From assembly GCA_013112685.1 (NCBI GenBank), contig JABFGC010000002.1, positions 124,001-188,000 on the forward strand: a DNA stretch of 64,000 nt. The letters run 5' to 3'. The notes below the pieces were generated by a model. That model was not told the DNA's origin. It searched no databases and saw nothing but the letters and a program-made list of their open reading frames with translations. Below are positions 7,539-16,185 of this stretch, one piece after another; the stretch's first letter is position 1, and each line of letters starts with the position of its first letter. Both the position numbers and the translations under genes were made by a program. Source of the stretch: Chloroflexota bacterium. Its GTDB lineage: Bacteria > Chloroflexota > Anaerolineae > Anaerolineales > Villigracilaceae.

Positions 7539-8433
7539 GTGAACGTATTGATCTCGGGCGGTTCGGGTTTTCTGGGGAGCGCCCTGACCCGTTCCTTTCT
7601 TGAGGATGAACACAAGGTTTTCGTTCTCACACGCGGCGCGCGCGTCCCTGCCGGGGCTGAAGCGGTGATGTGGGATGGCAGAACCATGAGCGGCTGGGGG
7701 CGGCTCGTCAACGAGATGGATGCGGTGATTCATCTTGCGGGGAAGACGCTCGCCTCCTGGCCCCGGACGAAGGCGACGAAGCAAGCCTTCCCGGATTCCC
7801 GCATCCTTCCCGGACTGGCGCTTGCTCAAGCCATTCGGGAAGCGGCTCGACGCCCAAAGGTTTTCCACCAGAGCTTCCGGCATCAACCACTACGGCTTGC
7901 GCGGCGACCTCGCCGATGAATCCACACCGCCCGGCGGGGATTTCCTCGCGCAGTTGACGGTCAAATGGGAGGATGCCACCAAATCCGTTGAAGAACTGGG
8001 CGTGCGGCGGGTGGTCACCCGCTCGGCGGTTGTGTTGGGAAGGGGCGGCGGTCTGCTCGGCTTGATGGCGTTGCCGGTAAGGATGTTCGTGGGCGGTCCG
8101 CTTGGCTCCGGCAGGCAAGCCATGCCGTGGATTCACATCACGGATTGGGTGCGGGCGGTGCGTCATTTGATCGCGGATGAAAATGCGCGCGGCGCATACA
8201 ACCTGATTGCCCCCACGCAGACATCCAACGCCGAATTCAATAAGATCCTGGCGGGCGTTTTGCATCGTCCATACTGGTTCCCCGCGCCGGCATTTTTATT
8301 AAGGAACGTTTTGGGCGAAATGAGCGTCTTAGTCCTCGAGGGCCGCTTTGCCCAGCCCAAACGGTTGATCAACTCTGGGTTCGTGTTCCAGTTTCCGGGT
8401 CCGCGTGAAGCGCTGACCGATTTGTTCGGTTAA
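7539..8433 (+). CDS. NAD-dependent epimerase, TIGR01777/YfcH family (frameshifted)
   Basis: A Rossmann-fold extended SDR-like protein of about 297 residues once a frameshift is bridged. The GTG start follows AAGGAG by 8 bases and leads into the nucleotide-binding glycine motif SGGSGFLGSAL. Next come VIHLAGKTL and, after the shift, ASGINHYG, the usual Ser/Tyr region of this family, and the C-terminal domain (GREAL-type end PREALTDLFG). One extra base near 7870-7874 (between KVFHQ and ASGINHYG) breaks the frame. The rest of the coding sequence is intact, so I read this as a sequence error rather than a dead gene. The physiological substrate of the family is unknown. Confidence 0.8.
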
Positions 8434-8454
8434 CTCAAAGGAGTAGATAAGTCC

Positions 8455-9129
8455 ATGAAAAAGTATATCGTCTTGTTGCTGGTATTCCTCGCCGCCTGCG
8501 GACCCTCTTCGCAGGAACCGTCGGTGGTGATGCCTGTGTTTTTACCGACCGCCACCGCGTACATTGATCCATCTTATCCCACGGCAGAGGTTGAGGTGGC
8601 GTCGCCGAACCAGACCGCGAGCGGCATCGAGGTGCGGGTGGAGCACGCCTGGATGGAGGGCAAGAACGTGAACGCCGATGTGTGTTATACCCTGCCCGAC
8701 GCATCCGACTGGTCCATCTGGTCGGCGAGCCTCACATACGCCGGGACGGTGTTGCAGGAATACGGCACGACCCTGGTAAGTTTGCAGGAGGCGGCAGATG
8801 GGCAGCCCGGTCTTCGTTGTGATACGCTGACCTTTGTCGTCGCGCCGGACGCCGATTTGACCAACGCAATCATCGAGATCGGCGCCATCGCCGCGCCGCC
8901 CCAGCAGGATGATTATTGCTCGGTCTATATGCCGAAAATCCAGCAAGCCATGCAGGAACGCGGGATCGGCATCGTGCTGGAATGCCTGGACGTGAACGGC
9001 ACGCTGACCATGCAGATCACCAGCCGTCCGCTGGAGATGACCCAGGAGCAGGCGGAGCAGATCGTCTACAGCGACGAGTTTTACACCGTGAAGGGACCAT
9101 GGAGTTTTCCGTTCAATTTGTCCCAGTAG
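8455..9129 (+). CDS. Lipoprotein of unknown function
   Basis: A 224-residue secreted lipoprotein. Residues 1-14 are a typical signal (MKKYIVLLLVFLAA) with Cys15 as the lipidation site (LAAC). A Pro/Thr/Ser-rich linker follows, and then a soluble domain without recognisable catalytic motifs; two Cys pairs in the domain (near VCYTLP, RCDTL, DYCSVY, LECLD) could form disulphides. AAGGAG stands before the ATG. It lies between the epimerase and tyrS and shares no obvious pathway with them. I do not recognise the domain. Confidence 0.8.
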   Translation: MKKYIVLLLVFLAACGPSSQEPSVVMPVFLPTATAYIDPSYPTAEVEVASPNQTASGIEVRVEHAWMEGKNVNADVCYTLPDASDWSIWSASLTYAGTVLQEYGTTLVSLQEAADGQPGLRCDTLTFVVAPDADLTNAIIEIGAIAAPPQQDDYCSVYMPKIQQAMQERGIGIVLECLDVNGTLTMQITSRPLEMTQEQAEQIVYSDEFYTVKGPWSFPFNLSQ

Positions 9130-9146
9130 GGTTCTTGTTGTATAAT
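9118..9146 (+). promoter_or_regulatory. Promoter of the tyrS leader
   Basis: TTGTCC (9118-9123), a 17-base spacer and a perfect TATAAT (9141-9146). The -10 box ends exactly six bases before the ATG of the leader peptide at 9153, so the transcript would start at or next to that codon. The -35 box overlaps the end of the lipoprotein gene. Confidence 0.75.
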
Positions 9147-9152
9147 AGCCGC

Positions 9153-9203
9153 ATGTCCGGCAAGTCGTTCGCTCGTTTCTATTATTACCGCGTCCATCCA
9201 TAA
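9153..9203 (+). CDS. Putative tyrosine leader peptide (MSGKSFARFYYYRVHP)
   Basis: A 16-residue reading frame, ATG to TAA, with three consecutive tyrosine codons (TAT 9180, TAT 9183, TAC 9186). It lies 123 bases before tyrS, between a strong promoter and a terminator hairpin. The position fits the classical leader peptide of ribosome-mediated attenuation: when charged tRNA-Tyr is scarce, a ribosome would stall at the Tyr codons and cover bases up to about 9200. No Shine-Dalgarno exists; translation would be leaderless. This is read from sequence only; such peptides are known for other synthetases (for example pheST) but I know of no described case for tyrS here. Confidence 0.62.
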   Translation: MSGKSFARFYYYRVHP

Positions 9204-9255
9204 GCCTTTGCGATGGTGTGAATTGAACGCGCCCCATCATCGCGGGCGCGTTTTT
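9189..9255 (+). promoter_or_regulatory. Attenuator with alternative pairings ahead of tyrS
   Basis: The terminator is a perfect 9-base stem (9226-9234 with 9244-9252), with loop CATCATCGC and a run of five T (9251-9255). A preceding segment GCGATGGTG (9210-9218) is complementary over 9 bases (one G-U) to that whole loop, so it can compete with the stem. A still earlier segment CCATC (9194-9198), at the end of the leader peptide, can pair with GATGG (9212-9216). This gives a 1:2, 2:3, 3:4 arrangement in which a ribosome stalled on the Tyr codons frees segment 2. ACCGCG at 9187-9192 resembles part of a T-box, but the TGGN core is missing. Confidence 0.55.
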
Positions 9256-9326
9256 GTTTCCGGCTCTGGAGCGACCGGAGACGAACAGCGGCGAGTTGCG
9301 AGATCATTTTTCCGCAGGGAGAACTT

Positions 9327-10538
9327 ATGAACATTGACGAACAGGTTGAATTGTTGATGCAAGGCACCGACTATGGCGACGAGGAGTTGCAGAAAGCCAT
9401 GGCGGCGGAACTGCGCGAGCGCCTGCTGACGGCGCAAAAAGAAAATCGCCCCCTAAGGGTCTACTGCGGCTACGATCCCACGTCCACCGACCTGCATTTG
9501 GGTCACACCATTTCCATGCAGAAACTGCGCCAGTTTCAGGATTTGGGTCATGACGTGACTTTCCTGATCGGCAGTTACACCGCGCTGGTGGGCGACCCTT
9601 CGGATAAGAACCGGGCGCGTCCGGTCCTGACCGAGGAGCAGGTCAACGAAAATGCCCGCACCTACGCCGAACAAGCCTTCCGCGTGCTGGACCGCGAGAA
9701 GACGAGAATCCGCTACAACGGCGAGTGGCTGTCGAAGTTAACGCTGGTGGATTTGATCCGCCTCGGTCAGAACTTTACCGTCCAGCAGTTTTTGGCGCGC
9801 GAGAACTTTGCCAAACGCCTCGAAAAGGGCGAGCCGATATTCCTCCACGAGACCTTCTATGCGCTGATGCAGGGATACGACGCCGTTGCCATGCAGACCG
9901 ACGTGCAAGTGGGCGGCTCGGACCAGTTGTTCAACATCATCGTGGCGGGACGCAAATTGCAGGAAGCGCTTGGGCAGAAGCCGCTGGTGGGCATCATCAC
10001 GGGCATCCTGCCGGGGACGGACGGCGTGCAGAGAATGTCCAAGTCCACAGGCAATATCGTGCCGATCAACACCGGCGCGGACGATATGTTCGGCAAGTTG
10101 ATGTCCGTTCCGGATTCGGCGATGGGCATTTACATGCGCTTGGTCACGCGTTGGAATCCGCACGAGATTGCGAAGATCGAAGCCGATGTAGACTCCGGCG
10201 CGCTTCATCCGCGCGACGCGAAGATGGCGATGGCAAAGGAGATTACCGGCATCTTCTATGGCGATGTTGAAGCCGCCGCCGCGCAGGAACAGTTCGTCAA
10301 GATGTTCCAGCAGAAGGAAGTCCCGGATGAGATGCCCGAATACGAACTGCAAGCCGGTCAAACGGTGGTGGATGTAATCCTCGCCGCGAAACTGGCGGAG
10401 AGCAAGAGCAAGGCGCGCGCGTTGATTGACCAAAAGGGCGTTCGGTTGGATGGGGTCGCGCTCGAGCGCGGGGACGCTCCCTTCCCGCATCCCGGCGTGC
10501 TTCAAGTGGGCAAACGCCGGTTTGTGCGCGTGACGTAG
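9327..10538 (+). CDS. tyrS: Tyrosyl-tRNA synthetase
   Basis: A 403-residue class I aminoacyl-tRNA synthetase that charges tRNA-Tyr. The HIGH-type motif is HLGH at residues 57-60 and the KMSKS-type motif is RMSKS near residue 237. The Tyr-binding segments QGYDAVAMQTDVQVGGSDQ are present, and a C-terminal S4 RNA-binding domain (about 340-400) ends the protein. GGGAGAA precedes the ATG. Expression is probably controlled by the leader at 9153-9255. A bidirectional terminator separates it from the convergent HD-GYP gene. Confidence 0.97.
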   Translation: MNIDEQVELLMQGTDYGDEELQKAMAAELRERLLTAQKENRPLRVYCGYDPTSTDLHLGHTISMQKLRQFQDLGHDVTFLIGSYTALVGDPSDKNRARPVLTEEQVNENARTYAEQAFRVLDREKTRIRYNGEWLSKLTLVDLIRLGQNFTVQQFLARENFAKRLEKGEPIFLHETFYALMQGYDAVAMQTDVQVGGSDQLFNIIVAGRKLQEALGQKPLVGIITGILPGTDGVQRMSKSTGNIVPINTGADDMFGKLMSVPDSAMGIYMRLVTRWNPHEIAKIEADVDSGALHPRDAKMAMAKEITGIFYGDVEAAAAQEQFVKMFQQKEVPDEMPEYELQAGQTVVDVILAAKLAESKSKARALIDQKGVRLDGVALERGDAPFPHPGVLQVGKRRFVRVT

Positions 10539-15878: not shown

Positions 15879-15953
15879 TGGAGGCGTCGACGGGATTTGA
15901 ACCCGTGAATGAGGGTTTTGCAGACCCTTGCCTTACCACTTGGCCACGACGCC
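15879..15953 (-). tRNA. tRNA-Cys (GCA)
   Basis: A cloverleaf with acceptor GGCGTCG/CGACGCC, anticodon loop CTGCAAA (anticodon GCA), T-arm GGGTTCAAATCCC, discriminator T and an encoded CCA end. It is the third tRNA of a minus-strand cluster (Phe, Gly, Cys). Confidence 0.95.
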
Positions 15954-16011
15954 ATATAAACAAAAGGATTGCCGACCGATTTCCATTCCAATCTGCAATC
16001 CTCCGTGTTTG

Positions 16012-16083
<72 letters not shown>

Positions 16084-16112
16084 AGATGACGACCTTCTTA
16101 CTTGGCCGAGAG

Positions 16113-16185
16113 TGCCGAGACCCAGGATCGAACTGGGGACACCGCGATTTTCAGTCGCGTGCTCTACCAACTGAGCTATCTCGGC
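16113..16185 (-). tRNA. tRNA-Phe (GAA)
   Basis: A 73-base cloverleaf with acceptor GCCGAGA/TCTCGGC, anticodon loop CTGAAAA (anticodon GAA), T-arm CCCAGTTCGATCCTGGG and discriminator A; CCA is not encoded. A second copy of the 3' acceptor strand (TCTCGGC, followed by CA) lies three bases downstream (16104-16110) and could also pair with the 5' end. Confidence 0.95.

Follow-up and report, generated by a model that had tools for sequence, protein, structure and literature searches.

A likely ribosome-mediated, tyrosine-codon attenuator upstream of tyrS in Anaerolineales (Chloroflexota)

Introduction

Classical ribosome-mediated attenuators are known for trp, his and pheST/pheM of enterobacteria, pheST being a synthetase operon. 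In SecM, MifM and VemP, a real protein controls the downstream gene with its C-terminus, through an arrest sequence and at the level of translation. Leaderless short frames with poly-cysteine in front of cysteine operons of mycobacteria are reportedly the subject of work by Canestrari from 2020. In the present study, a candidate attenuator upstream of tyrS, the gene of tyrosine--tRNA ligase, was investigated in a Chloroflexota bacterium of the Villigracilaceae (Anaerolineales; assembly GCA_013112685.1). The whole analysed stretch of 64,000 nucleotides (nt; contig JABFGC010000002.1, positions 124,001 to 188,000) is called the window in the following, and the element is located at window positions 9118-9259.

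According to passages of an earlier comparative paper, no conserved terminator hairpin was seen at the mycobacterial cysteine operons (PMC1262725). Leader-peptide attenuators are predicted in that paper for trpS and leuS of Streptomyces; a Tyr system was not found in the passages covered. Excerpts of further papers describe attenuators with His leaders in Firmicutes (PMC9413887) and attenuation of ilvB1 in M. tuberculosis (PMC13236596). For Chloroflexi, passages report T-boxes of ileS, trpE and a trpB-like gene in Dehalococcoides (PMC2494555) as well as leaderless genes with TAtaaT, the latter detected in silico (PMC3160421). A preliminary description of the window regarded a peptide-based system at tyrS as new for this lineage. 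This holds for the titles, beginnings of abstracts and passages covered on tyrS, Chloroflexi and leader peptides, among which no peptide-codon attenuator of tyrS was found, but the directly relevant survey of Lopatovskaya et al. (2010) is outside this coverage.

The tyrS leader of the window

Region 9118-9259 is very probably a ribosome-mediated transcription attenuator. It would match the expression of tyrS to the amount of charged tRNA-Tyr via a short Tyr-rich leader, for which translation is predicted to begin at the very 5' end of the RNA (leaderless). The following parts were assigned:

9118-9146, + strand: promoter-like site with TTGTCC (9118-9123, -35-like), 17 nt and TATAAT (9141-9146); from sequence and promoter scan
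9153-9203, + strand: leader frame MSGKSFARFYYYRVHP, 16 codons (9153-9200) and TAA (9201-9203), predicted leaderless; from sequence, frame and Tyr run conserved
9180-9188, + strand: sensor Tyr codons TAT TAT TAC; from sequence
9189-9200, + strand: segment 1, within the frame and directly 3' of the Tyr codons, putative partner of segment 2; from window fold, 1:2 covariation and own versus swapped duplexes
9209-9220, + strand: segment 2 with core GCGATGGTG (9210-9218), putative partner of either segment 1 or the terminator loop; from duplex tests and covariation
9226-9234, + strand: segment 3, the terminator 5' arm AACGCGCCC; from sequence and alignment pairing
9235-9243, + strand: loop segment CATCATCGC, putative antiterminator partner of segment 2; from duplex tests and covariation
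9244-9255, + strand: segment 4, the terminator 3' arm GGGCGCGTT (9244-9252) with T-run; from sequence and alignment pairing
9316-9322, + strand: Shine-Dalgarno-like AGGGAGA of tyrS; from sequence
9327-10538, + strand: tyrS, tyrosine--tRNA ligase, the gene presumed to be controlled; TIGR00234, 350 bits with a cut-off of 113.8

Promoter, 16-codon frame, the three consecutive Tyr codons and the terminator before tyrS agree base for base with the preliminary description. The six bases between the -10 box TATAAT and the ATG at 9153 could be read directly, and likewise the 9-bp terminator stem (3:4) with T-run at 9226-9255, between leader and tyrS, which is kept in relatives. Four codons separate the last Tyr from the stop codon. 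A simple terminator scan of the window leaves this hairpin unlisted, because the scan allows loops of at most 8 nt and the actual loop has 9. With the sigma-70-type promoter scan no second promoter was detected in the stretch from terminator to tyrS. The terminator lies downstream of the promoter, therefore tyrS needs read-through.

The short frame could serve only for translational coupling or re-initiation at tyrS, the hairpin being incidental. According to passages of PMC4833913, re-initiation at bacterial leader frames has been proposed. In the window, however, 123 nt with the terminator among them lie between the leader stop codon and the tyrS start, tyrS has its own Shine-Dalgarno-like site, and coupling or re-initiation leaves the preference for Tyr unexplained. 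We regard this explanation as highly improbable.

Conservation upstream of tyrS

The TyrRS search covered 120 genomes from the family and 121 from the order, and in addition 101 from the phylum and 120 from the class. The nearest 80 named TyrRS loci are 68-96% identical and belong mostly to metagenome Chloroflexi, Anaerolineales and Anaerolineae, once to Candidatus Villigracilaceae. Matches in the phylum outside the class represent another type of TyrRS with 38-45% identity. For the order, 185 upstream regions were analysed, one per genome and selected for spread from among the tyrS-bearing genomes. A region was counted when a frame with at least two Tyr near its end was followed by a terminator within 60 nt. 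The rule gave 121 matches, and 119 were retained after two (L059, L157) had been dropped by eye.

Accordingly, a Tyr-rich frame end followed by a terminator precedes tyrS in 119 of 185 genomes of the order, in 35 of 69 genera and in 8 of 14 families. Within the window's genus, 35 of 36 members carry the same element. These counts support the layout of ribosome-mediated attenuation matched to tyrS that the preliminary description had proposed; a loss of frame or Tyr codons in close relatives was tested for, and both are kept. The 119 systems comprise 87 free-standing leaders behind a TATAAT-like box (type A), 30 leaders ending a long open frame (type B) and two short ones without box. One of the 30, L176, is by eye a short leader inside a longer open frame. 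In the window the leader is a short frame of its own, but in many relatives it is the end of an upstream gene. The nearest relative (L290) shows no difference in the promoter and in the core from Tyr codons to T-run, while the initial half of the frame and the region leading to tyrS diverge. In this relative the core is thus kept and the rest drifts, as had been asked for.

Frames were also picked by promoter only, with an exact TATAAT 4-9 nt before ATG or GTG and at most 20 codons; 89 of 90 contained at least two Tyr, and Tyr made up 21.3% of the residues. In the genus alignment the last three Tyr positions are occupied by Tyr in 35/35, 33/35 and 29/35 sequences, and the best other residue, with start Met and thinly filled end columns set aside, is Pro (19/33). 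An exact TATAAT was found for 86 of the 87 free-standing leaders, such a box having been part of the picking criterion. The -10 box stands 6 nt before the start in 69 of them and 7-9 nt in 18. The distance from the last Tyr to the stop is three codons in 92 of 117 systems.

Instead of a lack of Tyr-tRNA, a nascent-peptide arrest similar to TnaC or SecM might set the switch, perhaps at Pro-stop with tyrosine as ligand. Pro is found directly before the stop codon in 52 of 87 free-standing leaders, and release at Pro-stop may be slow. On the other hand, Pro is the last residue in only 6 of 28 upstream-gene leaders, and between 2 and 5 Tyr are present in the last ten codons. In the genus no residue is strongly conserved besides Tyr and the start Met; a conserved peptide beyond the sensed residue, as expected for an arrest peptide, was not found in the genus alignment. 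Arrest is a very unlikely explanation.

Alternative RNA pairings

The preliminary description had assumed the pairings 1:2, 2:3 and 3:4. Our results are consistent with 1:2 and 3:4, but the partner of segment 2 (GCGATGGTG) in the antiterminator is the terminator loop CATCATCGC together with the first part of arm 4 (2:loop) and not arm 3. The two alternative pairings of segment 2, 1:2 and 2:loop, both show compensatory change. Duplex tests were performed with one sequence per genus (35 genera) and with two kinds of controls, shuffled sequences and linkers swapped between genera. The pairing 2:loop was better than in shuffles (Fisher p = 3.5e-18), individually with p < 0.05 in 21 of 35 genera; the window's own duplex reached p 0.025. 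In contrast, the linker paired with arm 3 alone no better than shuffled linkers in these 35 genera (Fisher p = 0.96). The linker:terminator duplex energy was -18.76 with the own linker and -14.67 with swapped ones, the own value being lower in 28 of 35 genera (p = 3.5e-5). For 1:2, with energies capped at zero in this comparison, -9.40 (own) and -7.55 (swapped) were obtained, own being lower in 25 of 35 (p = 0.0018), and the comparison with shuffles gave Fisher p = 4e-8. The 1:2 helix is weaker, and its register varies.

Covariation was examined in an alignment of the 46 alignable sequences (A1); six sequences of g32 with other terminators were left out. In A1, 94.3% of 2:loop is paired, and one pair (columns 38:65) changes from GC (33 sequences) to AU (7 sequences), which is compensatory. 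The structure of 2:loop together with 3:4 is 96.8% paired, slid versions reaching at most 66.5%. For 1:2, 91.1% is paired with at most 58.7% in slid versions, and one pair changes from CG (30) to UA (7), again compensatory. Cells with two-sided change exceeded the shuffles (7 vs 2.2 and 10 vs 2.9).

Position of the ribosome and proposed switch

The geometry was calculated for 117 of the 119 systems (two with linkers below 6 nt omitted), the ribosome edge being assumed at A site + 13. With a stall on the first or the last Tyr codon, segment 2 is free in 117/117 systems; a ribosome on the stop codon covers the start of segment 2 in 104/117. As shown by comparison of the sequences, frame, Tyr codons, terminator, both predicted alternative pairings and the presumed ribosome spacing are conserved or covarying.

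Folding was calculated for the RNA before emergence of arm 4. The mean probability of 2:loop over 34 genera was 0.73 for the Tyr stall, 0.39 for the stop-codon ribosome and 0.51 in the absence of a ribosome; the corresponding values for the window were 0.64, 0.00 and 0.10. A Tyr stall gave more 2:loop than the RNA without ribosome in 18 of the 34 genera and more than the stop-codon ribosome in 20.

From these data the following switch is proposed. When Tyr-tRNA is scarce, the leading ribosome would pause at TAT TAT TAC, with segment 1 covered. Segment 2 could then pair with the nascent terminator loop and the start of arm 4, arms 3 and 4 would be unable to close, and the polymerase would continue into tyrS. 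When Tyr-tRNA is ample, the ribosome would get as far as TAA, where the beginning of segment 2 would be covered, or it would depart and let 1:2 form. With segment 2 occupied, 3:4 would close and transcription would stop in the T-run. For 29 relatives, the role of the leader is predicted to fall to the final codons of a bPH-like gene upstream.

Points against the attenuator

Several observations weigh against the attenuator. In the window, the promoter scan found 1 site with 0.9 expected, the fold has a z of -1.57 compared to shuffles, i.e. near chance, and the 1:2 duplex is not significant (p 0.104, shuffles). Among the 35 genera, only 9 reach p < 0.05 individually for 1:2. The number of pairs with two-sided change is not above that of shuffles, and the covariation shuffles keep relatedness in. 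In the early fold of the 34 genera, a Tyr stall resulted in less 2:loop than no ribosome in 6 and in less than a stop-codon ribosome in 4. At full length, the equilibrium probability of 2:loop is low, with means of 0.23 (Tyr stall), 0.02 (stop) and 0.17 (none) and 0.00 in the window. Because 2:loop is rare at full length, the choice must fall during transcription, kinetically, before arm 4 emerges.

Furthermore, 66 of 185 genomes fail the rule, and 6 of 14 families do so wholly. Apparent real absences are the families f2, f4, f10, f11 and f15 as well as L052, L056, L065, L073 and L208. Another one is G084 (L019), the sole one of the 36 members of the window's genus in which the leader is missing. 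There, a TATAAT is close to the ribosome site of tyrS and GGGCGTTTTG resembles a remnant of the terminator 3' arm; the leader looks as if it had been deleted. Some regions were missed by the rule itself, namely L057 (terminator loop of 18), L080 (weak T-run) and L196 and L205 (contig ends). Partial forms are L070 and L079 with one Tyr and a terminator and L075 with YYY and no terminator.

Since promoter and fold are near chance in the window alone, the case rests on comparison. The window alone would also agree with a chance arrangement of the upstream gene's plain terminator, a promoter and an incidental reading frame. This is contradicted by the occurrence in 35 of 36 genus members and 119 of 185 genomes, by the unchanged core beside drifting stretches in L290 and by the read-through that tyrS needs. 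The probability of chance is negligible; at the level of sequence, it is already refuted by the conserved Tyr codons and pairings.

A T-box as alternative

An unrecognised tyrosine T-box could read tRNA-Tyr directly. For this speak eight T-box matches (RF00230) in the same genome, which precede thrS, pheS, a trpB-like gene, trpE, serS, valS, leuS and ileS (L101-L108). One of them is above the gathering score and seven are below (E 6e-20 to 5e-12); for pheS, trpE, leuS and ileS, the proteins are incomplete or match only in part and score below the NCBIfam cut-offs. A T-box at tyrS, the alternative named in the preliminary description, was looked for, but no match was obtained in the window at gathering level, nor in 8400-9400 at E up to 5. 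In addition, about 80 nt from -10 box to terminator are available, compared to a span of 258-375 nt for the T-box matches of this genome. Among 20 relatives without attenuator no T-box serving tyrS was detected at gathering level; the sole match (L123) is on the opposite strand. We therefore consider a T-box at tyrS extremely unlikely. In the Rfam scan of the window, tRNAs were the only families reaching the threshold, and the matches below threshold in 8400-9400 were P9 (E 0.19) and toxic sRNA (E 3.5).

An upstream gene as leader

Except for L176, the type B loci (29 of 30) have their Tyr codons at the end of a gene of about 150-190 codons, the starts not being fixed. By eye its product has hydrophobic stretches and is membrane-protein-like. 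A weak similarity to bPH_6 was found, 15 of 16 members tested matching at E <= 1 (best 6.5e-9); the first member tested falls below the Pfam cut-off. An assignment to CYTH/adenylate cyclase was rejected, as the Pfam matches point to a bPH_6-like family; CYTH matches are present elsewhere in the window's genome. The bPH-like gene was found in 27 of 121 genomes of the order and in 32 of 120 of the family. By coordinates, 24 of the 27 genes of the former search adjoin tyrS. In several type B genes (e.g. L061, L068) a TATAAT-like box seems to stand a few bases before the likely start (LLYNxxM in the translated frame), therefore these genes may be leaderless themselves.

Tyr doublets were counted in the last 8 residues for 57 genomes with sequence, including G035 with the gene of the dropped row L157, which was counted as having both terminator and doublet. 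A doublet is present in 31 of 32 genes whose stop codon is directly followed by a terminator, compared to 3 of the 25 others (Fisher 1.4e-11). Of the three exceptions, G196 and G204 have a terminator by eye with poor T-run, and G063 has none. The gene ends with one Tyr (VYSR, IYTR, TYSRP etc.) when it is apart from tyrS or followed by a separate leaderless Tyr leader. G067 carries YY just outside the last 8 residues and no attenuator, and G152 has a terminator and a single Tyr. Correction for relatedness with the upstream-gene tree weakens the support for the association. Only four independent supported contrasts were left, of which a mean of 2.8 agree (median p 0.25), and one contrast disagrees in a few of 200 random pairings. 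After this correction, the association of Tyr doublet and terminator is suggestive, not proven.

With moderate confidence we propose that the 3' end of a working bPH_6-like membrane-protein gene doubles as Tyr sensor of the next gene. An inherited single Tyr near the C-terminus would have become a doublet or triplet where the gene abuts the tyrS terminator, and would have reverted or stayed single elsewhere or where a separate leaderless leader took over. If so, tyrS would have come under Tyr-codon control several times in the class, with RNA scaffolds that are unrelated to each other.

Other Tyr leaders and further observations

Other orders of the class contributed 40 upstream regions, of which one (L391) passes the rule, with a different kind of Tyr leader. 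This different leader, Y-x-Y-x-x-G with other hairpins, is present in 8 of 42 other-order regions (L211 and L212 included) and in 6 of 9 of family f5, which belongs to the Anaerolineales. Leaders with Y-[IST]-Y-x-x-G are L376, L383, L388, L391, L392, L394, L397 and L400 in the class and L169, L170, L172, L174, L182 and L183 in f5. A TATNAT-like box precedes several of them. As judged by eye, their Tyr codons are directly followed by a hairpin of the type GGGGC..GCCCC or by a long stem that begins in AGCGGATTGTAG, after which a terminator-like hairpin is often present. Scanning 12 of the 14 Y-x-Y-x-x-G leaders gave no Rfam match. Possibly, the Y-[IST]-Y-x-x-G leaders are separate inventions of Tyr-codon control of tyrS.

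Two prephenate dehydrogenase matches of the window's genome have no similar leader upstream by eye; a genome-wide survey was not carried out. Histidinol dehydrogenase was not found in this genome. A PF00579 synthetase match of the same genome (G000, C1:1441170-1442005) is split into two pieces. In the window, the gene upstream of the leader (8455-9129) is lipoprotein-like by eye, and no NCBIfam family match was obtained for its product. Three tRNA genes are clustered at 15882-16185 on the minus strand.

Comparison with known systems

If the leaderless start is true, the switch would be set by a ribosome that loads at the RNA 5' end. Relatives with the sensor codons at the end of a longer gene would be a natural series for the origin of leader peptides. 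For the many metagenome genomes concerned, the element would predict regulation of tyrS from sequence alone.

Like the trp, his and pheST attenuators, the system of the window has a short frame with a run of the matching codon, a stop codon, alternative 1:2, antiterminator and terminator pairings and a U-run before the first gene. It differs from them in the Tyr codon and the tyrS gene, in the predicted leaderless start and in the antiterminator partner, which appears to be the terminator loop; in relatives the leader is sometimes the end of a longer gene. With trpS and leuS of Streptomyces it shares a predicted leader-peptide attenuator on a synthetase gene outside Proteobacteria, but those systems concern Trp and Leu, Actinobacteria and few genomes. 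As in the mycobacterial poly-cysteine frames, the sensed codon occurs as a run in a short regulatory frame, which in the window is predicted to be leaderless. The T-boxes of Chloroflexi have the same task in the same genome for other synthetases. In a T-box the tRNA binds the RNA directly, whereas at tyrS the predicted sensor of charging is a ribosome on the Tyr codons. As T-box matches are present at other synthetases of this genome, both classical modes of sensing charged tRNA could be compared side by side. Type B leaders resemble SecM, MifM and VemP in the predicted control by a gene end and differ from them by codons and a transcription terminator. The kind of mechanism is old. Within the literature covered, its novelty lies in the gene and the lineage as well as in the predicted leaderless start, in an antiterminator that pairs with the loop and in the use of a gene end as leader.
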